IMG/VR virus record: IMGVR_UViG_3300032047_000140
Span: 1 to 22,957 of that record
From: a virus
DNA length: 22,957 bases
Strand: one strand, 5' to 3'
The number at the start of each line of letters is the position of its first letter. Positions within the stretch are counted from its first letter, which is position 1. Shown here piece after piece: positions 4,924-14,207 of this stretch. The notes below the pieces were generated by a model. The model did not search any database. It was given only the letters and a program-made list of their open reading frames with translations, and was not told where the DNA came from. The translations under genes were made by a program, and so were the position numbers.

Positions 4924-5853
4924 TCAACCCCATGTGTCTTCTTGAGCCGCAGGACAAATACCAAAATAAGAGCATGAAGCACACATCTTGTAAAAGAAAG
5001 TTGGTGTAAATTCTTTTATTTCATATGCTTTTATCAGTTTAGCAATATTTAGTTTAACAGAAGTCATAGACCTTTTCTTTACTTCTTCAACTGTAATATG
5101 ATTAGCCGCAGGATAATACCAACCCCAATGAGTGACCTTCATATCTTTGTTTAAACCATGTTTAGCCAAAACTTCTTCACTACAATTCTCTATCATTAGT
5201 TGATAAAACGCCATTTCTTGACGCATAGAAGTTGTTTTGTAATCTTTCCAACCTCCTGTTTTATATTCAAAAGGAATTAAATTACCATTTTCTATAAATA
5301 TTCTATCAATAATACCTTGAAGTCTAACCGTATATGGTCTGTTAAGAGTAAATTCTTGATAATTATTCCATGCTCCGCCTTTATATGGGCCAATTGGAAT
5401 AACTATTTCTGTATCAAACATTTCTTCATTAACAATAGGAAGAAACTCATGTAGTTTATCTTCAGATTTTGCTTCAATAAATCGTTGTGCTTCAAATGCC
5501 GCCACATTTAATGTAATGTCAAAATAATCATCAACGGGCATTAAACTTGTGCAATATTCTAAGACTTCACTATTATTCATATTCTCGGCTTTTTTAATAT
5601 CAAAATCATTAAAGAAATCTTCACGATGATTATGTAATACCGTTCCTTTACGCATGGCTTCGGTTTGGTCTTGTGGCCTTCTCTCAATATAATTAAATTG
5701 ATACTTTTTAGGACACCAATTAAATGAACCTAAAGAAGATTTACTAATCTTCAATATTGGTTTAGATGGGTCATCAAAATTTTCCCATTCCCATTTATAT
5801 GTAAAATCCTGCATGCTTGCTATTCTTGCTTTATATTTCTCATCTGTATTCAT
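4924..5853 (-). CDS. Cas4/RecB-like PD-(D/E)XK nuclease, Fe-S type
   Basis: This 309-aa protein has the RecB-type catalytic set: H74 in GTVLH, D183 in QGIIDR, E196 and K198 in EYK, and the downstream QExxFY motif (Q212, Y217). Cysteines C47 (NWCPKKY) and C291, C294 and C300 (CASCSYFGIC) match the one-plus-three pattern of the 4Fe-4S cluster in Cas4 and AddB/Dna2-type nucleases. It should cut single-stranded DNA ends and is well placed among replication genes. No Cas1, Cas2 or CRISPR repeats are present, so adaptation is not suggested. A role in flap processing or recombination is more likely. The start follows GGTGAT. Confidence 0.85.
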   Translation of the reverse strand: MNTDEKYKARIASMQDFTYKWEWENFDDPSKPILKISKSSLGSFNWCPKKYQFNYIERRPQDQTEAMRKGTVLHNHREDFFNDFDIKKAENMNNSEVLEYCTSLMPVDDYFDITLNVAAFEAQRFIEAKSEDKLHEFLPIVNEEMFDTEIVIPIGPYKGGAWNNYQEFTLNRPYTVRLQGIIDRIFIENGNLIPFEYKTGGWKDYKTTSMRQEMAFYQLMIENCSEEVLAKHGLNKDMKVTHWGWYYPAANHITVEEVKKRSMTSVKLNIAKLIKAYEIKEFTPTFFYKMCASCSYFGICPAAQEDTWG

Positions 5854-5857
5854 ATTA

Positions 5858-6064
5858 TCACCTGTCTATTTGTAATTGTTTAATTTCTTGAAATGACGCT
5901 CTTAATTCAGCGCACATATGGTCGTATAAAAAAACTAAATACTCTTCAAAAGTATAATCTCTAAACTGTTCATAATCGTCTTTTTCGGATTTATAATCTA
6001 AATATAAACCGTCTCTTACCTCTTCTAATCTTTCTCTTTCTAATAATATTTCATCTTCTCTCAA
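5858..6064 (-). CDS. Small acidic helical protein (68 aa)
   Basis: This short helical protein is rich in Glu, Asp, Arg and Tyr. Its middle section (YEQFRDYTFEEYLVFLYDHM) has alternating aromatic and acidic residues. The start is taken as TTG at 6064, because GGAGGA lies 6 bases upstream and the codon forms a TTGA overlap with the PolB C-part stop. An ATG at 6070 is possible but would sit directly after that site. The stop merges with the GGTGAT site of the Cas4-like gene. No family is recognised. Confidence 0.55.
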   Translation of the reverse strand: MREDEILLERERLEEVRDGLYLDYKSEKDDYEQFRDYTFEEYLVFLYDHMCAELRASFQEIKQLQIDR

Positions 6065-6951
6065 AACCATTCCTCCAAACTTCTTTGTATTGTTCCCGTT
6101 CTTATTGATGTTAAATCCCATGCCATCGCACTAAAAATAGGCTCGGCCTTCTTTACTACTTGTTCGGCATAGTGCTTGAGGTCGGGATTACAACCCTCAA
6201 ACTCCTTCGCAGTTGTGCATGATACATACTCAACTACTTTTCTTTCCTTTGTTAAAGGGTGAATATAATACTCACTATTGTTTAATACTTTCATAAAGAT
6301 ATATGAATCATCAAATTCAGTATCTTTACTCCAAGCATAAATAACTCCTGCGATACCCGAACCTATTGTCGGTTTTTTACCTTCAAGAGTTGTGAATTTC
6401 TTTGTATGTGTAGCGCATTTACTACATACAGAATGCTCTAATTCTAAACATTCTTTTAGATGATATTTAGCATTACAATCCGGACATTTAACCATGAGCC
6501 TATTAGTTCTTAATCTACTTCTTTTAATAAGAGGCGTTAGTCCTAACTTTCCATCTAAAACATCGGCATACTTAGAGTAAAGAAATTGCACTATTTCTGC
6601 TTGTGACTTTTGATTTACCCACATTTTCAATACATCTGTTTGAACTTCTTTAGCCAACTTAGTTTCACTAACTCTTTTGGCAGTAAATCCGGTCATGCTG
6701 AATTTAGGCTCATCAAGCCATTCTCCATCTTCCCAAGACACCAAACCCGCATTTCTATTTCTAACAGTTCCGACACCTAATGCTGAAAAATACTTTTCAA
6801 ACTCTAATACTACGGGGTGTTCATCTAATCCCATTACATTTGGAAAGTGTTCTCTTACGCTTTCTTCTATCTCCTTGATAGCCGTCTGCGCTTTTTCAAC
6901 AGAATCTATTTGAACATAAATAGAATCAGTATGTCCATAAACTACTTTCAT
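6061..6951 (-). CDS. DNA polymerase B, C-terminal part (motif C and thumb)
   Basis: This 296-aa protein is the second half of a split family B polymerase. It begins four residues before motif C, which reads YGHTDS (residues 5-10). The catalytic second Asp (D9) is present, while the first Asp of the usual YGDTDS is His. FEKYF (51-55) and the thumb motif TAKRVSETK (about 90-98) follow. A zinc-ribbon-like insert (C156, C159, C176, C179) lies further on. The last eight residues, QRSLEEWF, are a PCNA-interacting (PIP) box at the extreme C-terminus, as in archaeal PolB. The protein cannot polymerise alone. It must assemble with the product of 8211-9866. The start overlaps the previous stop as TAATG. 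Confidence 0.9.
   Translation of the reverse strand: MKVVYGHTDSIYVQIDSVEKAQTAIKEIEESVREHFPNVMGLDEHPVVLEFEKYFSALGVGTVRNRNAGLVSWEDGEWLDEPKFSMTGFTAKRVSETKLAKEVQTDVLKMWVNQKSQAEIVQFLYSKYADVLDGKLGLTPLIKRSRLRTNRLMVKCPDCNAKYHLKECLELEHSVCSKCATHTKKFTTLEGKKPTIGSGIAGVIYAWSKDTEFDDSYIFMKVLNNSEYYIHPLTKERKVVEYVSCTTAKEFEGCNPDLKHYAEQVVKKAEPIFSAMAWDLTSIRTGTIQRSLEEWF
6071..6076 (-). promoter_or_regulatory. Shine-Dalgarno site supporting a TTG start
   Basis: GGAGGA on the minus strand is 6 bases before TTG (6064) and directly abuts an ATG (6070). The spacing favours the TTG, giving a TTGA stop-start overlap with the polymerase gene. The same layout is seen at the PCNA start. Confidence 0.5.
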
Positions 6952-7157
6952 TATTTCATACCCACCCTTGTTGGTGCATTTATCTTATTAATAACATAAA
7001 AGTCTCTATTTTCTCCAAGATATTCTTGCATTTCGCATACTGCTCGTTCTAACTTAGCAGTATTTATTTCAAATAATACATCTAAGTCTTTTTGTAAGCC
7101 CTTGATTGTCTTTTTTAATCCTTCTATTTCTTTTTGTAATTTATCTATATCATTCAT
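6951..7157 (-). CDS. Coiled-coil small protein (68 aa)
   Basis: Residues 1-45 show a clear heptad pattern of Leu and Ile with Lys and Glu (IDKLQKEIEGLKKTIKGLQ), so a coiled coil or helical dimer is expected. A short basic tail follows. This is the last gene before the PolB C-part and shares TAATG with it. It starts in an ATGA overlap with the membrane microprotein. It lies in the block that separates the polymerase halves. A role in joining the halves is an attractive but untested idea. No family is recognised. Confidence 0.6.
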   Translation of the reverse strand: MNDIDKLQKEIEGLKKTIKGLQKDLDVLFEINTAKLERAVCEMQEYLGENRDFYVINKINAPTRVGMK

Positions 7158-7285
7158 ACTATCACCGTCATAATTGTTATAATGGTCGCTATGTTCACGA
7201 TATTTACCATCATTAATATCTTATTTGATTTTGCTATCATAGCCAGCAATTCTTCTAATAATTCATTTGTTTTGTCCATCATCAT
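7154..7285 (-). CDS. Small membrane protein (43 aa)
   Basis: The first 20 residues form an amphipathic acidic helix. Residues 24-43 are almost entirely Ile, Val, Met, Thr and Ala, a predicted single transmembrane helix running to the C-terminus (a tail-anchor layout). The ATG follows GGAG with 9 bases of spacing, and the stop makes an ATGA overlap with the coiled-coil gene. Three Met codons in a row at the start leave the exact first residue open. It belongs to the gene block inserted in the split polymerase. No function is recognised. Confidence 0.55.
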   Translation of the reverse strand: MMMDKTNELLEELLAMIAKSNKILMMVNIVNIATIITIMTVIV

Positions 7286-7436
7286 TTTTATTCGCTCCTT
7301 GCTCAATATCAATAATGACCGCATTACGCTTTAAATTATTCATCATTTGAAATATCTCCTTTACTTCTTTTAAAGTAATATCCCATGTTTCTTCGGTATC
7401 ATACGATACCTTTACACTTACAATTTTAGTTCTCAT
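7263..7436 (-). CDS. Small protein of unknown function (57 aa)
   Basis: This 57-aa protein has an N-terminal strand (TKIVSVKVSY), a central helix (TLKEVKEIFQMMNNL), another strand (AVIIDIE) and an Asn/Asp/Lys tail, which suggests a small alpha-beta fold. The start at 7436 is chosen because GGAGGA lies 6 bases upstream. A longer frame exists but lies inside the previous gene. It overlaps the winged-helix gene by 11 bases and the membrane microprotein by 23 bases. No family is recognised. Confidence 0.55.
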   Translation of the reverse strand: MRTKIVSVKVSYDTEETWDITLKEVKEIFQMMNNLKRNAVIIDIEQGANKNDDGQNK

Positions 7437-7653
7437 GTTTAATCCTCCTGTAAATCTTTCTTCCTTTAGATGTTTTAATAGGCTCAACATATTTTTGTCT
7501 ATTCAAATACCAACCAATAGCGGCATTATCACAAACAAATGTTGTTCCTCTTGTTTCAATTAGTTTTTCTTTTATTGACATAGCGAAAAATTCTTCGCCA
7601 ATATCAAGGGATAAAACTAATTCATCTATCCATCTTTTAATGTGTGTGTTCAT
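7426..7653 (-). CDS. Winged-helix-like small protein (75 aa)
   Basis: Helices in residues 1-35 are followed by a segment (DNAAIGWYLNRQKYVEPI) that looks like a recognition helix, then by two short strands with basic residues (GRKIYRRI). This is the pattern of a winged helix-turn-helix. The 86-aa protein at 14176-14436 has the same order of elements. The start follows GATGATAAT. It lies in the block between the polymerase halves and could bind DNA as a regulator or accessory factor. The assignment is from pattern only. Confidence 0.55.
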   Translation of the reverse strand: MNTHIKRWIDELVLSLDIGEEFFAMSIKEKLIETRGTTFVCDNAAIGWYLNRQKYVEPIKTSKGRKIYRRIKHEN

Positions 7654-7657
7654 ATTA

Positions 7658-7780
7658 TCATCTCTTATCTATTAAATCCAAGAACTTTTCAGCCTCAATT
7701 CTTGCTTCTTCGGCACATCTTTTACAATGGTATTTGCCTTCAAATTCCGGCCTACATCTTAGTGGTGTTTTACATTTCAT
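7658..7780 (-). CDS. Zinc-binding microprotein (40 aa)
   Basis: This 40-residue protein has four Cys in two clusters (C3 and C9; CKRC at 19-22) and a His just before the second pair. A helix of acidic and basic residues fills the rest. This is a minimal zinc-ribbon or treble-clef shape. The ATG shares ATGA with the previous stop, and the stop is followed by TGATAATATG of the next gene. Although very short, both overlaps and the Cys pattern support coding. No function is known. Confidence 0.55.
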   Translation of the reverse strand: MKCKTPLRCRPEFEGKYHCKRCAEEARIEAEKFLDLIDKR

Positions 7781-8214
7781 ACTTCTAACTCCTTATTTTT
7801 ATTTTGTGCGTATTTTAGTGCTTGGATTTGAGAACTAAAAAACTTAAACAAACCATTTTGCCGAGTTCTTTTACCGCACTTTTCACAAGGCGATGATTGA
7901 AAAATACCATTTTTTAATTTATGTTCACCATGCTTAGTGGACATAATATTATATTGACCGCAACCTTCTTTTGGTGTTCTACCAGCAGGTTTTAACTTAT
8001 TATCTTCTAATTGAACAGGGCATTTCCAAACCACCCAATTTCTTGAATGAATAGGAGATTGTTTTATTTCTTTCTCTAAAATATGGGAATGCCCTTCTCT
8101 AACTTCTTTATATTTTAAAAGAACGAGGGCTTCTTTTTCTGTAAAACTTAATGCTTCACTCATGGGTAATAAGTCCTTAATTAAAATATAAGTCCTTAAA
8201 GTTATACCACTCAT
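7777..8214 (-). CDS. Zinc-finger protein in polymerase break (145 aa)
   Basis: This is the first gene after the PolB N-part and shares ATGA with its stop. Residues 20-55 are helical and charged. The C-terminal half carries four Cys: WKC (C65), GCG (C85) and CEKC (C110, C113), probably one zinc site, followed by a basic CGKRTR segment and a helix. A DNA-binding role is plausible. I looked for HNH, GIY-YIG and LAGLIDADG catalytic motifs, since homing endonucleases often sit at polymerase breaks, and saw none. It could be a degenerate mobile-element protein or an accessory polymerase subunit. Confidence 0.65.
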   Translation of the reverse strand: MSGITLRTYILIKDLLPMSEALSFTEKEALVLLKYKEVREGHSHILEKEIKQSPIHSRNWVVWKCPVQLEDNKLKPAGRTPKEGCGQYNIMSTKHGEHKLKNGIFQSSPCEKCGKRTRQNGLFKFFSSQIQALKYAQNKNKELEV

Positions 8215-9866
8215 ATTTCCATCTCCTTCGCCTTAAATGCGGCTAATCTAATAGCCTCTCTTGCACTTGCCGTTATAGAAGCCGCTAAATTAACATTAGC
8301 CCAACCAAATCCTTGAAAGGCAATAATTCCGTAAAATGAAGCCATTAAACGCTTTACTGCCATTTGATTATTATGCCATTTTTGATACTCGCCACTATCA
8401 TTAGAGGCTTTCATTCTTTTCTTATAGTCATTTCTTAACTCTTTTAATTCTAATACTGCTCTTGGTAATAGTCCTAATTCATCTGTTTTAAAATACAACA
8501 TATGTTTCTTTTCAACGGGGCTAAAATCTCTTGGTGTTAGAATATTAACTGCAAATTCTGTTGGTTCTTCACTAATGGTTTCCCAAGATATATTTCTTGC
8601 TATCATCATTGAAGGATATAGACCTGCAAAATCAAAAGCCGCAACATTAAGATGTAATCCTTGAGTTTGTTCACTTAAAGGGTCATATATCATAGCCCCT
8701 TCATAAGTTTCTCTTTTCTCTACTTTACTTCCTGTCTTGCATTTCCACCAAGCATTTCTCATAAAGTAAATAGAACCCATGTGAGAAGCGTAGAAACAAG
8801 CATCAAATGGTGCTTTTAGTAATCTTTGTAGTGATAATATTGCTTCACTACAATAGTTTGATTCATCTATCTCGACTATCAACTTTACATCTTGTATAGC
8901 ATAGTCAAGATAAGTTTGAGTATCTTCTAACCAAGCCCTGCGATAAAATTCATTTGTATCGGGAAACTTCTCCGAGACAAGTTTCTTCTTGTTTAGAACT
9001 GTTTCACCAATATAATCAAGAGACAAAGAAGGTAATGTTCCTCTTTGTGAATCATTCCATTGTCTTTCAAATGCTAAATCTAAAGATAAAGTAATTCTTC
9101 CATTAATAGGTTGTTCAATAGGGCTAAAACCCTTTTCACCATATGCAAAGGAAAAACTATCTTTCTTTTTCTTTATACCTTTAATGTGTCCTGTTGGCGA
9201 CATTATTTGTGGATTAAGACCAAGAGCGCAGGTTCTTTCTAATAACTTAGGTATATCTGCAAAATGACCGAACCATGCAATTAACATATCGGGGTCTTTT
9301 ACAACCATTGTTGTCATAAAGTTTTCAAGCATGTCTTTTTCATTAGTGAATATTTTAGCATTCCCAAGAGGATAAGTGTGCATAATTTTACGCATTGCCT
9401 TTTCAGGAAACCATACCCATTGATGATACTTCTCTTCATAATTATCATACACTACAATAGTAGTAATACAATCGTGATATTCTCCGCCTTGTTGCCATTC
9501 CATATCCCAATACCATTTACGCATTTTATACTCCGGCATTTCTTTTACTTCATCAACTGCATATCTAAAGTGAAAAGGCACATCAGCCTCATAGGTTTTC
9601 TTGAACATATCTTTAGCCTTTCTAATATCAAAAGAAGTATCAACTACAACTTTCTTTAACGGCTCATTATCAATATTAACCCAATCACCACGAATATACT
9701 CAAAGTCTCTATCAATATACTTTGATGCCTTATACTTGGAAGGTTCTTTCTCATCTTCTTTAACATAAAAATAAGGTTTAACTTCCACCATTTCAAACTT
9801 CTTTTCACCGTTCTCTCTCCAAGATTTATAGATTCTTTTACCATCATTCATCTTACTTATTATCAT
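8211..9866 (-). CDS. DNA polymerase B, N-terminal part (exo and palm/fingers)
   Basis: This 551-aa protein is the first half of a split family B polymerase. The proofreading exonuclease is complete: Exo I D121/E123 (YWDMEW), Exo II D204 (FADIP) and Exo III Y322/D326 (YAIQD). The polymerase domain has motif A FDFAGLYPSM (D412) and motif B KRLMASFYG (K505, Y512, G513). The Asn of the usual KxxxNSxYG is replaced by Ala. The protein ends at residue 551, after the helix that follows motif B and just before motif C, which is encoded 1.26 kb further on at 6951. Together the parts total 847 aa, a normal PolB length. No intein residues are seen at the end. The enzyme would copy the viral genome. Confidence 0.92.
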   Translation of the reverse strand: MIISKMNDGKRIYKSWRENGEKKFEMVEVKPYFYVKEDEKEPSKYKASKYIDRDFEYIRGDWVNIDNEPLKKVVVDTSFDIRKAKDMFKKTYEADVPFHFRYAVDEVKEMPEYKMRKWYWDMEWQQGGEYHDCITTIVVYDNYEEKYHQWVWFPEKAMRKIMHTYPLGNAKIFTNEKDMLENFMTTMVVKDPDMLIAWFGHFADIPKLLERTCALGLNPQIMSPTGHIKGIKKKKDSFSFAYGEKGFSPIEQPINGRITLSLDLAFERQWNDSQRGTLPSLSLDYIGETVLNKKKLVSEKFPDTNEFYRRAWLEDTQTYLDYAIQDVKLIVEIDESNYCSEAILSLQRLLKAPFDACFYASHMGSIYFMRNAWWKCKTGSKVEKRETYEGAMIYDPLSEQTQGLHLNVAAFDFAGLYPSMMIARNISWETISEEPTEFAVNILTPRDFSPVEKKHMLYFKTDELGLLPRAVLELKELRNDYKKRMKASNDSGEYQKWHNNQMAVKRLMASFYGIIAFQGFGWANVNLAASITASAREAIRLAAFKAKEMEI

Positions 9867-9872
9867 TAATAT

Positions 9873-10646
9873 TCACGCACCTATATGTGGTGCTTTCAAT
9901 AGTATTCTATCATTAGCCACTATCAAAAGCGGAAATTCATCTTTCATGTATATGTTTAACATTTGGTCTTTCTCAAAGAAAGCATAAAGAGGGCTACTAA
10001 ATTCAATAGTTGCCCCTTCATTTGGATTAGTAATAAACAACGGAGTTAGCGTTTCTTCATACTTGTTAGTAATGCTTTGTCTTGTTGAAAGTGTTATTGT
10101 TTCATTCTTATCTAACTTGTATATGCCACTCTTAACCAATTCACATGCTTTAAGTGCATTCTGTAATTGTGCGTGTGTAATAGTAAATGCAGTTTCAAAT
10201 TGTCCTTTGCCGAAAGTCCATAGTCTATTCGGATTTACTTCATATCTAACATGACTTAGCATTCCCTTAATTCTTGTTAATGGTTGAATTTGAGGGTGAT
10301 TGACAACTAAAGGTATTGAAGCCTTCTTTGAATCACCACTTGTAATGGTAATAAAATCACCAACTGAAAATGTTATCTCATTAGAAAATGATTTCAAATA
10401 AGGAAGAACATTTGCGCTATCAAGACAGCAAATGCCTTCTTCGGATTCACCTTCTAATGGAATAGTTAGTGATACAAAGAAAGTTTGGTTTCCATTCCAA
10501 ATACTCAAATTATTATCTTTAACTTCTAAAAGAGCGTATGTTCCAAGATTGGTATTACCAAATCCATTATTAGTTGTTCCCTTTCCTTTAACTTGGACAC
10601 TCTCTAATCCGTTCTTTAGTTCATTTGTTTCTATTGTAAATTTCAA
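9873..10646 (-). CDS. PCNA-like DNA sliding clamp
   Basis: This divergent 257-aa clamp begins with the typical KFTIET..L strand-helix. The C-terminal signature is clear: FPLLI followed by ILLKAPHIG, matching the 'P....LaPri' end of PCNA. The length fits a two-domain, trimeric clamp. It would hold PolB on DNA through the PIP box of the polymerase C-part and also bind the PIP-box AAA+ protein. The start is TTG at 10646 in a TTGA overlap with the Sak4-like gene, with GAGAGGG 6 bases upstream. An in-frame extension upstream would add 12 residues inside that gene. The central region is only weakly similar to cellular PCNA. Confidence 0.8.
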   Translation of the reverse strand: MKFTIETNELKNGLESVQVKGKGTTNNGFGNTNLGTYALLEVKDNNLSIWNGNQTFFVSLTIPLEGESEEGICCLDSANVLPYLKSFSNEITFSVGDFITITSGDSKKASIPLVVNHPQIQPLTRIKGMLSHVRYEVNPNRLWTFGKGQFETAFTITHAQLQNALKACELVKSGIYKLDKNETITLSTRQSITNKYEETLTPLFITNPNEGATIEFSSPLYAFFEKDQMLNIYMKDEFPLLIVANDRILLKAPHIGA

Positions 10647-11464
10647 ATCAATCCCTCTCGCAATTCGGGAATACCTGTCCAAGAAACTTTACCTGTTCCG
10701 ACAGTTAATGATTCCCAAGTTTTACCGACAAGTGCAGTATTGGTTTTACTACTTAGTAATTCAGCCTTATACACTACATCGTTTTTCTTGCGAGTTCTTC
10801 TTGTTGAAATAATTTGGAACATATAATCTCCCCAATTGTGCCAATTAGGTTTAGAACCAATTACTTCTCCTGTTGCTCCATAATCTGCTTTAGCATGAGT
10901 AATGTAGATTTGGTCGCAATCTAAATTCTTACACATCATCAATAGAGAATAAAATGGTGCATTTCTTTTGCCCCATTCAAACTTCATCTTTTGTGGTTTG
11001 CCGATTTTAGAACTTCCGGTCACATTTAATGTGCAACAGTCAAGCCACTTATCTACTCCATCAAATACAAACAAAACATCTTCTCCTTCTGCTATTTTAG
11101 ACTTAACGAATAAAACAAAATCTTCGGAATTTGCTTCCGACTTTTGAATATCTAATTCGCCATTTTCATTTCTTACTTCGGGATTCCACAAAGTAATTCT
11201 TTCAGTCATCTCATGGTTTTGTCTCCATGTAGGTTCGCAACCATTATCCCAATCTAAAACATAAATTTGTTTATTAGGGAAATCAAGGGCTAATCCACTT
11301 TTGACTGTTTTGGGTTCTCCCCAAATACCACAAACTAAACGATTACTTCTTGCTAATCTACCTTCTGTTTGTTTCTTTAATTTATCCTGAAATGCGACAA
11401 CTCTTTGGTTCTCTATCATTTCATTCGCTACTGCCGGTTGTTTATTCTTACTTGTTAAACTCAT
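10643..11464 (-). CDS. Sak4/RadA-like RecA-fold ATPase
   Basis: This 273-aa ATPase has a P-loop GIWGEPKTVKSGLAL, with G49 to S56 as the core. The order GEPKTxKS is typical of the AAA_24/Sak4 group of phage single-strand annealing ATPases. The usual Gly before Lys is Val. Walker B is VLFVFDG (D135). An ITHAK strand near 188-192 matches the RecA motif 3 region. Sak4 proteins promote strand annealing or exchange with an SSB partner. Here the RPA-like SSB and the clamp are close neighbours. The start follows GGTGAT. It could also be called a minimal RadA-like recombinase, since it lacks the N-terminal HhH domain of RadA. Confidence 0.75.
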   Translation of the reverse strand: MSLTSKNKQPAVANEMIENQRVVAFQDKLKKQTEGRLARSNRLVCGIWGEPKTVKSGLALDFPNKQIYVLDWDNGCEPTWRQNHEMTERITLWNPEVRNENGELDIQKSEANSEDFVLFVKSKIAEGEDVLFVFDGVDKWLDCCTLNVTGSSKIGKPQKMKFEWGKRNAPFYSLLMMCKNLDCDQIYITHAKADYGATGEVIGSKPNWHNWGDYMFQIISTRRTRKKNDVVYKAELLSSKTNTALVGKTWESLTVGTGKVSWTGIPELREGLI

Positions 11465-12009: not shown

Positions 12010-12027
12010 TGATTGAATAATCAATCA
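12010..12027 (-). other. Small hairpin after SSB gene
   Basis: A perfect 6-bp inverted repeat (TGATTG and CAATCA around an ATTATT loop) overlaps the stop codon of the SSB gene (12025-12027). No T-tract follows, so it is not a clear terminator. It may mark an RNA 3' end or processing point together with the hairpin at 11960-11980. Confidence 0.3.
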
Positions 12028-13248
12028 AAACCAATCAAAGTTATCCTCAACGGGTTGGGAAACTTCAACGGCTGAACCATGCTTTAGGGTGCAATAAATA
12101 CCCGAAGCATTAATTGTTGTTGGTTCAACTCCTTCATCGGTTGTTCTTTGGCTTGTTCGGCCAACAATAATAACTGATGATTGAATACCGAAATCAATAT
12201 TCAAATGTGGGGGAATCCAACAAGTGACAATTCCCGAACCATCGGAATAATCCAATTCATAATCAATATCTGTTATATTGATAATTCTATTACCGTTCTT
12301 TGTTGGAGTCATATTCATATTAGTGACTGTTCCATCTGTAATTACAAATCTTTCTTTAGAAGGTAATTCCTGTCTTTGAATATGCGCTCTATCTAATTCC
12401 ATAAGTGGAGTTAGATGAGAACCAAAGTTATTTCTTAGACAATCTTCAAAGTCAAAGTTAGACATATCCCTAAATAATTCATTGTCCGGACTCATTTCAC
12501 TATTTAATGAAAGGCTATTGAATGTTAAATCTTTAGCCCCATAAATATCTGTTCCTGCATCATTAGCAACACAAAGGAAATGCACCCATTCAAATGTATT
12601 AGGTGCAAAATCTACTCCGCCTTGATTCTTATAAGAAAAGAAATAAGGTTTCATTTCACTTGTTCCAACAGAACCATAAAATATACCGCTTCTTCTCATT
12701 TGTTGTGGTGGTAGTGGTTTTCCGTATTGTGCATTCTTTCCGCCATTCATATAAACGGGCGTGTTATCTAAAGGAACATAATATCGGCCATCTTCTGTTT
12801 CTTCTGCTCCCGCAGGTAGAGATGAAATGGTTTTTTCTTCATATTCTCCATGTTGATAACGGGAAATAACCCACTTACCTAAAGCGTTTTCATTTGCTAT
12901 TGCTACAATTCCTTTTTCAAGGGCATTATCAGCATCACGCATAAACTCTTCTTTTGCTTTCATTCTGTTCCACGCCATCATATCTCTTGGTTCTTCTAAA
13001 GCAACAAAGAATCCAAATGCTGCCTTGTAAAAAGAATCATTACTGTTGTTATTGTTATTATTTGAATCTCCCTCTTGGGTTCTTCTAACATTCGCAACAT
13101 AGTTTCTCCATACACCTTTAGCAATTGGGGCGGTTGTTTCAATTCCGTTTTCTTCGCAAACTTCAACGAATTTTGCTAACGCTTCTTCTTCGCTCAAACC
13201 AATATATTGTGCGCTTTTAATCACTTCTGCTTTCATATCTTCATTCAT
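12025..13248 (-). CDS. RPA-like single-stranded DNA-binding protein
   Basis: This 407-aa protein has a helical N-terminal domain (EEALAKFVEVCEENG), then an Asn-rich linker at about 63-68. A central region probably holds one OB fold. A clear OB fold follows at about 300-387, with the strand pattern FVITDGTV, RIINITDI, GIVTCWI and SSVIIVG. The C-terminus is acidic and aromatic (EDNFDWF), the kind of tail SSBs use to dock partners. It should coat single strands during replication. ATG at 13248 is preferred because upstream in-frame sequence is a low-complexity Asn/Lys stretch overlapping RFC. It fits between the RFC and Sak4/PCNA genes. Confidence 0.75.
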   Translation of the reverse strand: MNEDMKAEVIKSAQYIGLSEEEALAKFVEVCEENGIETTAPIAKGVWRNYVANVRRTQEGDSNNNNNNSNDSFYKAAFGFFVALEEPRDMMAWNRMKAKEEFMRDADNALEKGIVAIANENALGKWVISRYQHGEYEEKTISSLPAGAEETEDGRYYVPLDNTPVYMNGGKNAQYGKPLPPQQMRRSGIFYGSVGTSEMKPYFFSYKNQGGVDFAPNTFEWVHFLCVANDAGTDIYGAKDLTFNSLSLNSEMSPDNELFRDMSNFDFEDCLRNNFGSHLTPLMELDRAHIQRQELPSKERFVITDGTVTNMNMTPTKNGNRIINITDIDYELDYSDGSGIVTCWIPPHLNIDFGIQSSVIIVGRTSQRTTDEGVEPTTINASGIYCTLKHGSAVEVSQPVEDNFDWF

Positions 13249-13298
13249 ATTTTTCACTTTCCTATTTTTTGTTTTTTTGTTTTTGTTTTTGTTCAATT

Positions 13299-14207
13299 CT
13301 ATGATAGTTGGCCAATTAACCATGAGGCTAATACTTTAGGAGTCATAGTGGTTGAACGCCATTCACTTTCTCCTATCGTTCTAAGGACTTTAAATTTCAA
13401 ATTGCTATCTAATTCAGCAATTAATACTGCGTCATGCAAGCCAATACAAATTTCACGGATAGTATATCCATCGTAAAGTAAGTTATGTATTGCCTGTAAA
13501 GAATCTGCCTGTTTATCAATTATTTTCATTAGTATTTTGCTATATTCATCTAAACTGTTATCCACCTGTGCCTTGAGGGAAGAATCACTTGCTTTTGCGG
13601 CCTGTAATTCTGTAATCGCCCTCCGCATATCACCGTTCATAGCATATATAAAGGAGTTCAAATCATTGGTTTCAAAACGAGTTATACCTTCTTTTTGAAG
13701 AATTGATTGTATTACTTCCAATAATGATTCATTACTCAATGGCTTAAAATGATAGTTGGCACATCTACTTTGTAATGCAAAGATAATCTTATTTCTATCA
13801 TTACAAGTAATAATAAATCTTATATTACTTGAATATCTTTCCATAATTCTTTTCAATGCATTTTGAGCATCATTAGTCATTCCATCCATTTCATCTAATA
13901 ATACGATTCTAAATGGTGCATCACCTATTGTTGCACTTTGAGCAATATTCTTTATTGTTGTTCTTACTGTTTCTAATCTTCTATCATCGGAAGCATTTAC
14001 TTCTATATAATTATCAATAAAAGATTCACCAAGTATTTCTTTGGCTAATACTAAAGAAGCACTTGTTTTCCCATTTCCCGGATTTCCATGAATTAAAACA
14101 TTAGGCATGTTTCTTTCTTCTATCCATGTTTTAGCGTCTAAACTAAAGTGTTCTTGTCCTATTAAGTCATTTAACTTATTTGGCCTGTATTTTTCTGTCC
14201 ATAACAT
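13299..14207 (-). CDS. Replication factor C small subunit (clamp loader)
   Basis: This 302-aa protein matches RFC-S throughout. It starts with WTEKYRP, has Walker A GNPGNGKT (41-48), Walker B LLDEMDG (D105, E106), sensor 1 in IITCN, and the arginine-finger SRC motif (S147-C149). The C-terminal collar domain is present at near-normal length. It would open and load the PCNA-like clamp. The start at 14207 has GGAGGA six bases upstream and lies 31 bases inside the previous gene. No full-length RFC large subunit is present, but the AAA+ protein at 14433-15275 may stand in for it. Confidence 0.93.
   Translation of the reverse strand: MLWTEKYRPNKLNDLIGQEHFSLDAKTWIEERNMPNVLIHGNPGNGKTSASLVLAKEILGESFIDNYIEVNASDDRRLETVRTTIKNIAQSATIGDAPFRIVLLDEMDGMTNDAQNALKRIMERYSSNIRFIITCNDRNKIIFALQSRCANYHFKPLSNESLLEVIQSILQKEGITRFETNDLNSFIYAMNGDMRRAITELQAAKASDSSLKAQVDNSLDEYSKILMKIIDKQADSLQAIHNLLYDGYTIREICIGLHDAVLIAELDSNLKFKVLRTIGESEWRSTTMTPKVLASWLIGQLS

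Follow-up and report, generated by a model that had tools for sequence, protein, structure and literature searches.

In this study, we analysed a 22,957-base stretch of viral DNA (the window; positions 1 to 22,957 of IMG/VR record IMGVR_UViG_3300032047_000140) in which the family B DNA polymerase (PolB) is encoded in two parts, an N-half and a C-half. The elements in question are as follows.

8211..9866, minus strand: PolB N-half, 551 amino acids (aa), ending ...AFKAKEMEI-stop
6061..6951, minus strand: PolB C-half, 296 aa, beginning MKVVYGHTDS (motif C)
6952..8210, no strand assigned: break between the halves, 1,259 bases, with six genes on the same strand

The sequences show that, in one magrovirus-type clade, the gene was interrupted in place, after the fingers helix and ahead of the motif C strand, and that the free end of the N-half has drifted. 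We consider it highly probable that the two parts of this PolB are translated independently and come together as one enzyme with no splicing step. We infer the assembly from the way in which the halves tile the fold, from their co-conservation and from the precedent of Aeromonas phage 25, whose 43A and 43B proteins, according to the available part of the source, co-purify, with polymerase activity present (PMC2988022). A point that tells against this reading is that the association of the halves rests on models of single chains.

The two halves and their fold

The N-half contains the N-terminal domain, the 3'-5' exonuclease, the part of the palm with motif A (DFAGLYPS), the fingers with motif B (KRLMASFYG) and the helix beyond motif B; the C-half contains motif C, the remaining palm, the thumb with a Cys-rich insert and a C-terminal QxxLxxWF motif. 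Pfam matched positions 36-193 of PF00136 in the N-half, together with the exonuclease domain, and positions 222-347 in the C-half, and the AlphaFold models of the single halves had a predicted local distance difference test score (pLDDT) of 89.7 (N-half) and 91.3 (C-half). By Pfam and by these models, the family B DNA polymerase fold extends across both halves. Residues 1-551 of the N-half model correspond to residues 2-533 of solved archaeal PolB chains (5vu9, 4k8x; Z about 28); for the C-half model, residues 1-285 correspond to 534-757 in these chains (Z about 16). On KOD/9N/Tgo-type chains, N-half residue 551 falls at 533-534 and C-half residue 1 at 534-535; in RB69 (1ih7), the edges lie at 606 (N-half) and 615 (C-half). 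Because the halves tile the solved chains, the cut falls past the helix that follows motif B and ahead of the motif C strand, without missing residues. When the joined halves were compared with their nearest intact relatives, they were longer by one residue, the start Met, in 103 of 147 junctions, with a range of -1 to +5 because the N tails vary in length.

A preliminary description of the window had given the same two halves, coordinates and lengths, with six genes between them, and had called the split before motif C 'seamless', proposing an alignment to PolB structures as a check. That alignment proved gapless and free of overlap, so that the structural edges bear out the seamless cut, and the multi-gene filler of six same-strand genes is likewise confirmed.

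Neither half has a full active site, because motif A Asp412 and motif B lie in the N-half and motif C Asp9 lies in the C-half. The halves would bind in such a way that D412 and D9 make one active site, and neither alone would be able to polymerise.

Recurrence of the split in related viruses

Scanning IMG/VR brought up 516 relatives of the N-half, and alignment-based scans gave 433 (C-half) and 492 (N-half) matches, of which the best 80 of each were listed. Among 348 magrovirus-type loci, which include many overlapping pieces of the same contigs, 256 were split and 34 intact, 34 showed the N pattern only, 10 the C pattern only and 14 neither. The split junctions comprised 147 that were distinct by exact sequence, near-copies being counted apart, and 61 entries of the junction survey were counted as neither split nor intact (pattern missed or contig end). 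Four split loci added manually brought the number to 151; the trees, folds and motif counts used 140 N-halves and 144 C-halves with both ends present and of the usual length. This left out the broken N-half of L073 and L120 (loci are designated by L numbers), which are the same contig and in which the N-half open reading frame (ORF) ends at 309 aa, through a sequencing error or a broken gene. A 184.7-kb contig (IMGVR_UViG_3300021958_000021; L057/L110 and L161) carries two different magrovirus-type PolB loci and represents either joined genomes or an unusual double genome.

No virus was found to have lost one of the halves when the single-half loci were examined for this. All 34 N-only loci end no more than 1,799 bases past the N-half stop, and 8 of the 10 C-only loci begin no more than 1,570 bases before the C-half start; in the remaining two (L391 and L395), the N-half was found by tblastn. 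The search of marine viromes for the same split that had been suggested at the outset found it in 256 of the 348 loci, and a misassembly is ruled out because the same break occurs in 147 distinct junctions. Uninterrupted relatives, which had been named as a finding that would speak against the split, do exist, but they form a separate sister clade, so the split is not refuted.

The intact relatives were found by a scan seeded with haloviral and magrovirus-type PolB and then by a scan seeded with its intact matches. They have a single PolB gene, and the complete ones among those first aligned encode 813-825 aa. At the junction, the intact form reads ...SITASARRAMRLTAFKAQELGYEVIYGHTDS... and the split clade ...SITASAREAIRLAAFKAKEMEI-stop and MKVVYGHTDS; identity to the intact PolB of L331 is 43-45% in the N-half and 33-39% in the C-half. 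Sixteen of 16 loci (nine intact, seven split) have the gene order p432, RecA-like, clamp, PolB, PD-(D/E)XK nuclease, primase-like, ERCC4 nuclease, helicase-like, with the exceptions that L363 ends inside the helicase-like gene and that RFC was not found in L363 and L365.

In the N-half tree (45 rows, rooted on haloviruses), the split forms make up one clade (support 100/99) and the intact forms another (96/85). In the C-half tree (40 rows), a single branch (100/100) parts the split from the intact forms. The simplest reading of these sequences is one split in place, after the split and intact clades had parted. It is weakened by the disagreement of the trees on the first-branching split lineage (L369/L382/L396 for N, L384/L395/L412 for C), by a long-branch warning toward the haloviral outgroup in the N-half tree and by the lack of an outer root in the C-half tree. 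Haloviral PolBs were rejected as direct parents since they are too distant (about 25% identity). Marine virus AG-345-O18 (L083) has an intact PolB of T4-like appearance.

Separate translation and selection on both halves

The C-half has a start codon in all 147 distinct junctions (145 ATG, one GTG and one TTG), the junction pattern having left the residue before [KED]-V/I-V-Y of motif C free; all 27 intact loci carrying the pattern have Tyr at this position. The split N tails comprise 20-26 residues when counted from the Ser of SITASAR (22 in 103 of 147); in 27 of 27 intact loci, the same count up to the [EK]VIY that follows this Tyr gives 22 residues. A Shine-Dalgarno-like 4-mer stands before 67 of 147 C-half starts, compared with 416 of 2,985 internal ATGs. 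In 102 of 147 junctions, the first gene of the break shares 4 bases with the N-half stop, and in 145 of 147 the last lies within -4 to +5 bases of the C-half start. Because the ends of the break genes abut or overlap the N-half stop and the C-half start, the region is a tightly packed operon, probably with translational coupling.

In ten comparisons with L002, which is the twin of the window with both halves identical, the nonsynonymous-to-synonymous rate ratio (dN/dS) was 0.11-0.21 for the N-half and 0.02-0.15 for the C-half. Judged from these coding sequences, both halves are under purifying selection. The dN/dS of the filler genes ranged from about 0 to 0.67 and was as a rule above that of the polymerase halves.

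The break and its genes

From the N-half stop to the C-half start there are 1,259 bases, or 1,262 when the stop codon is counted. The genes in the break, assigned to clusters of break genes (F numbers), are as follows.

7777..8214, minus strand: filler gene 1, Cys-rich, 145 aa; 4 bases at its start are shared with the end of the N-half; cluster F43, of one member
7658..7780, minus strand: filler gene 2, 40 aa, with Cys pairs; cluster F3, in 42 of 147 breaks
7426..7653, minus strand: filler gene 3, 75 aa; cluster F0, which merges two neighbouring genes and is in 121 of 147 breaks
7263..7490, minus strand: filler gene 4, 75 aa; cluster F0
7154..7324, minus strand: filler gene 5, 56 aa, with a hydrophobic C-terminal segment; cluster F2, in 109 of 147 breaks
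6951..7157, minus strand: filler gene 6, 68 aa, coiled-coil-like; cluster F1, in 117 of 147 breaks; its stop overlaps the C-half ATG by one base

Filler gene 1 has no kin in other breaks and no Pfam or PHROG family at E 0.1. Filler gene 5 was put in F2 by its letters, the tiling rule having passed over its ORF in the twin L002, and relatives of it sit at other places in L360, L370, L371 and L396. F1 is the final gene before the C-half in 86 breaks. Among relatives, the break measures 94-2819 bases and holds one to nine ORFs (at least 25 aa, tiled), 687 in total, which fall into 63 single-linkage clusters; the tiling rule omits strongly overlapping ORFs, so these gene counts per break are low estimates. 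With a median of 883 bases (standard deviation 456, n=135), the break is the longest of ten intervals in the replication module. Its spread in length is about level with that of the p432 to RecA-like interval (median 369, standard deviation 473, range 26-1,892 bases, n=77). In relatives, the interval between the p432 gene (12025-13323 in the window) and the RecA-like gene (10643-11464) is a second site of gene turnover.

Origin of the split

Several breaks carry endonuclease genes. Family F14 is present in five of 147 breaks (L036, L131, L181, L382 and L383), and all five members matched HNH endonuclease or endonuclease VII in PHROG; family F15 is present in another five (L063, L069, L071, L141 and L191), with a PHROG HNH match in all five and a Pfam HNH match above the cut-off in L063 and L141 and below it in L071 and L191. 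Both families were scanned at full length from the DNA. Four breaks (L076, L104, L149 and L151) carry MUG113/T5orf172 genes, of which three of three scanned were above the Pfam cut-off, and one (L399) carries a PDDEXK_3 gene. No relatives of F14 or F15 outside the breaks were found in 1,754 kb of split loci, in which the breaks amount to 139.6 kb, and none in 306 kb from 21 intact loci. Matches of F19 (MUG113) outside the breaks were mostly on the helicase-like gene and were read as a shared tail.

A possible origin, to which we give a little less than an even chance, is that a free-standing homing endonuclease made or fixed the split. Its gene would have landed in this most conserved stretch of PolB, and the break would afterwards have become a lasting landing place for small genes. 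A second split supports this by analogy: at L277 (4980-8413), a 247-aa HNH gene (PF01844, 3.7e-8, above the cut-off) interrupts the thumb of a halovirus-type PolB near residue 641 (HRTV-27 numbering), and the C part beyond it, 201 aa long, starts with an ATG of its own. This case resembles a young endonuclease split and backs the same origin for the magrovirus split without proving it.

Several observations count against homing as the cause. Pfam made no HNH call in the four F14 members scanned, and the families were defined from break genes, so that their restriction to the break holds for these families and is not an endonuclease census. In the window's own break, no endonuclease was recognised among the six genes by Pfam, PHROG or the clusters. 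Homing may be secondary because 132 of 147 breaks, that of the window included, are without these families and because the carriers include the near-copies L382 and L383. The chances are about equal, in our judgement, that the split arose instead when small non-mobile genes were inserted or rearranged by chance, with endonucleases arriving later as at any tolerated site. Consistent with this, in the deep-branching L396, L369 and L412, breaks of 94, 132 and 222 bases hold just one small ORF each (that of L396 being an overlapping, Cys-rich ORF of 33 codons). Against it stand the independent HNH split of L277 and the HNH-type genes of the magrovirus-type loci, which are confined to the break, come first in it in nine of ten cases and are present also in the deep lineage of L382. 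Because the deep lineages L396, L369, L412 and L394 hold filler clusters other than F0, F1 and F2, the present filler does not define the split.

A broader scenario is rather unlikely but can be stated. Motif C of archaeal-virus PolBs would be a homing target, and PolB would have been opened more than once (in the magrovirus ancestor and in the thumb at L277). Removal of the target site would have made the magrovirus split permanent, endonucleases and small genes would still be exchanging in the break, and carriers would convert, or resist, endonucleases that cut the PolB of intact competitors.

Conserved residues and changes in the split form

The exonuclease acidic residues, D412, K505/Y512/G513 and D9 are invariant in two alignments (A9, 56 rows; A8, 55 rows); these include the motif A Asp, the motif B Lys...Tyr-Gly and the second motif C Asp that mark family B. 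Motif C (window 6922-6939, minus strand) reads YGHTDS in 136 of 144 split forms and YAHTDS in the other eight. Its first Asp is thus His, in split and intact magrovirus-type PolBs alike, and Asp in haloviruses; the His predates the split. All 15 intact forms have KNRY where 143 of 144 split forms have [KRA]NRN, and an extra FPNxx[GNS]L stretch is found in 136 of 144 split forms and in no intact form. Most split C-halves carry a Cys-rich, zinc-ribbon-like thumb insert (window about 6406-6504, minus strand) that is absent from the intact clade, with CxxC within C-half residues 136-215 in 137 of 144; L197, L377 and L396 are without CxxC. Like the intact clade, L384, L393, L395 and L412 (262-263 aa) are without the insert, so that it either arose after the split or disappeared in these loci.

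The C-half ends in IQRSLEEWF (6064..6090, minus strand), an instance of Qxx[LIM]xx[WF][WF], which we take to be a clamp-binding-like motif. Of the proteins examined, 138 of 144 split ones and all 15 intact ones carry the motif at the C terminus, which suggests docking on the viral clamp; the last residues of the C-half may tether the complex to it.

The replacement of the first motif C Asp by His, the change of KNRY and one related contig with a broken N-half (L073) would all fit a PolB pair that is decaying or inactive in a virus relying on another enzyme. We hold this to be very improbable, as dN/dS is low in both halves, the catalytic residues listed above are invariant and the His is already present in the intact clade. 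Primer-independent PolBs, moreover, are without the first motif C Asp and yet highly active, according to the part of PMC7544198 available.

We give almost no credence to the possibility that PolB is restored to full length, either through split-intein trans-splicing or because the filler is spliced out as an intron. Inteins classically sit at motif C, and some haloviral PolBs have long in-frame inserts near motifs B and C. For the split PolB3 of Methanobacteriales, erratic intein excision was the proposed explanation in the portion of the source at hand (Makarova et al. 2014, PMC4104785). However, neither edge has extra residues or an intein domain, as had been claimed from the start, and no intein halves are fused to the edges of the parts; the length and gene content of the break vary freely, the N tails drift in length, the C-half start codon is conserved, and an Rfam search of the window and five loci (six sources) gave no RNA family above the gathering score. 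On the gapless edges and the missing intein domain and Rfam match, both forms of restoration were rejected. Among haloviral PolB genes, those of L275, L278, L279, L281 and L283 carry long inserts near motif B or motif C that are possibly inteins.

Virus identity and neighbouring genes

The following genes flank the polymerase.

9873..10682, minus strand: gene resembling a sliding clamp, on the upstream side of the N-half; matches PHROG 'DNA polymerase processivity factor' at E 2e-5; Pfam match below the cut-off
4924..5853, minus strand: PD-(D/E)XK nuclease gene, on the downstream side of the C-half; serves as a synteny marker

Judged by its genes, the window probably belongs to an archaeal virus, as first supposed: its gene set is like that of Magrovirales/Aoguangviridae described in PMC10768690 and comprises the PolB halves, clamp loader (PHROG, 9e-59), ligase and Cpn60 chaperonin (both by Pfam), primase (PHROG, 1.4e-10) and clamp. 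A GroES-like gene in the window was not confirmed by the PHROG search. With 22,957 bases, the window covers part of a genome; contigs of relatives extend to 92-97 kb, the genomes of Magrovirales/Aoguangviridae being 90-100 kb in size. A single scan of genome contigs gave two matches, one split and one intact (L425 and L426), in metagenome-assembled genomes labelled Maricaulis and Altibacter, which are probably mis-binned virus contigs.

Comparison with known systems

Here, the catalytic centre of a viral polymerase is spread over two chains, cut directly before motif C and kept so by a whole marine clade. With intact and split forms, short and long breaks and the HNH split of L277, the path from insertion to a polymerase that depends on both subunits can be tested stepwise, and the cut site is a practical lead toward polymerases activated by assembly.

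The preliminary description had supposed that the split may be undescribed. This does not hold for the split itself, because the legend to Fig. 1 of the International Committee on Taxonomy of Viruses profile of Aoguangviridae (PMC10768690) names 'PolB-NTD/CTD' for Poseidoniales virus YSH_150918 (order Magrovirales). The profile text also lists clamp, clamp loader, primase, ligase and GroEL/GroES and a G+C content of 31.5%, compared with about 33% in the window; it gives no split site, age, filler or mechanism, and the comparison is by description, not by sequence. A literature search, which some likely papers lay beyond, brought up none that specified where exactly the split lies, that it is confined to one clade, that this clade has an intact sister or that endonucleases occur in the break.

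The intact magrovirus-type sister clade (L331 and others) shares the place of the gene, the gene order and YGHTDS with the split clade but, unlike it, has one gene, no Cys-rich thumb insert and KNRY kept. The intact haloviral PolBs have YGDTDS in motif C. In Methanobacteriales (PolB3) and Nanoarchaeum equitans, an archaeal PolB likewise comes from two genes; these splits are attributed to intein excision or trans-splicing in the part of PMC4104785 available, whereas the window has no trace of an intein. The T4-like split gene 43 (43A/43B) of Acinetobacter and Aeromonas phages resembles the present case in that a viral PolB is divided into two genes, with small genes or an endonuclease lying in the gap. 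In Acinetobacter phage fHyAci03, the two parts of PolB are separated by six small annotated genes, so the multi-gene filler, thought unusual at first, is not unique. The cut site does differ: in fHyAci03, motif B is in 43B and the cut lies before it, whereas the PolB of the window is cut after motif B, directly before motif C.

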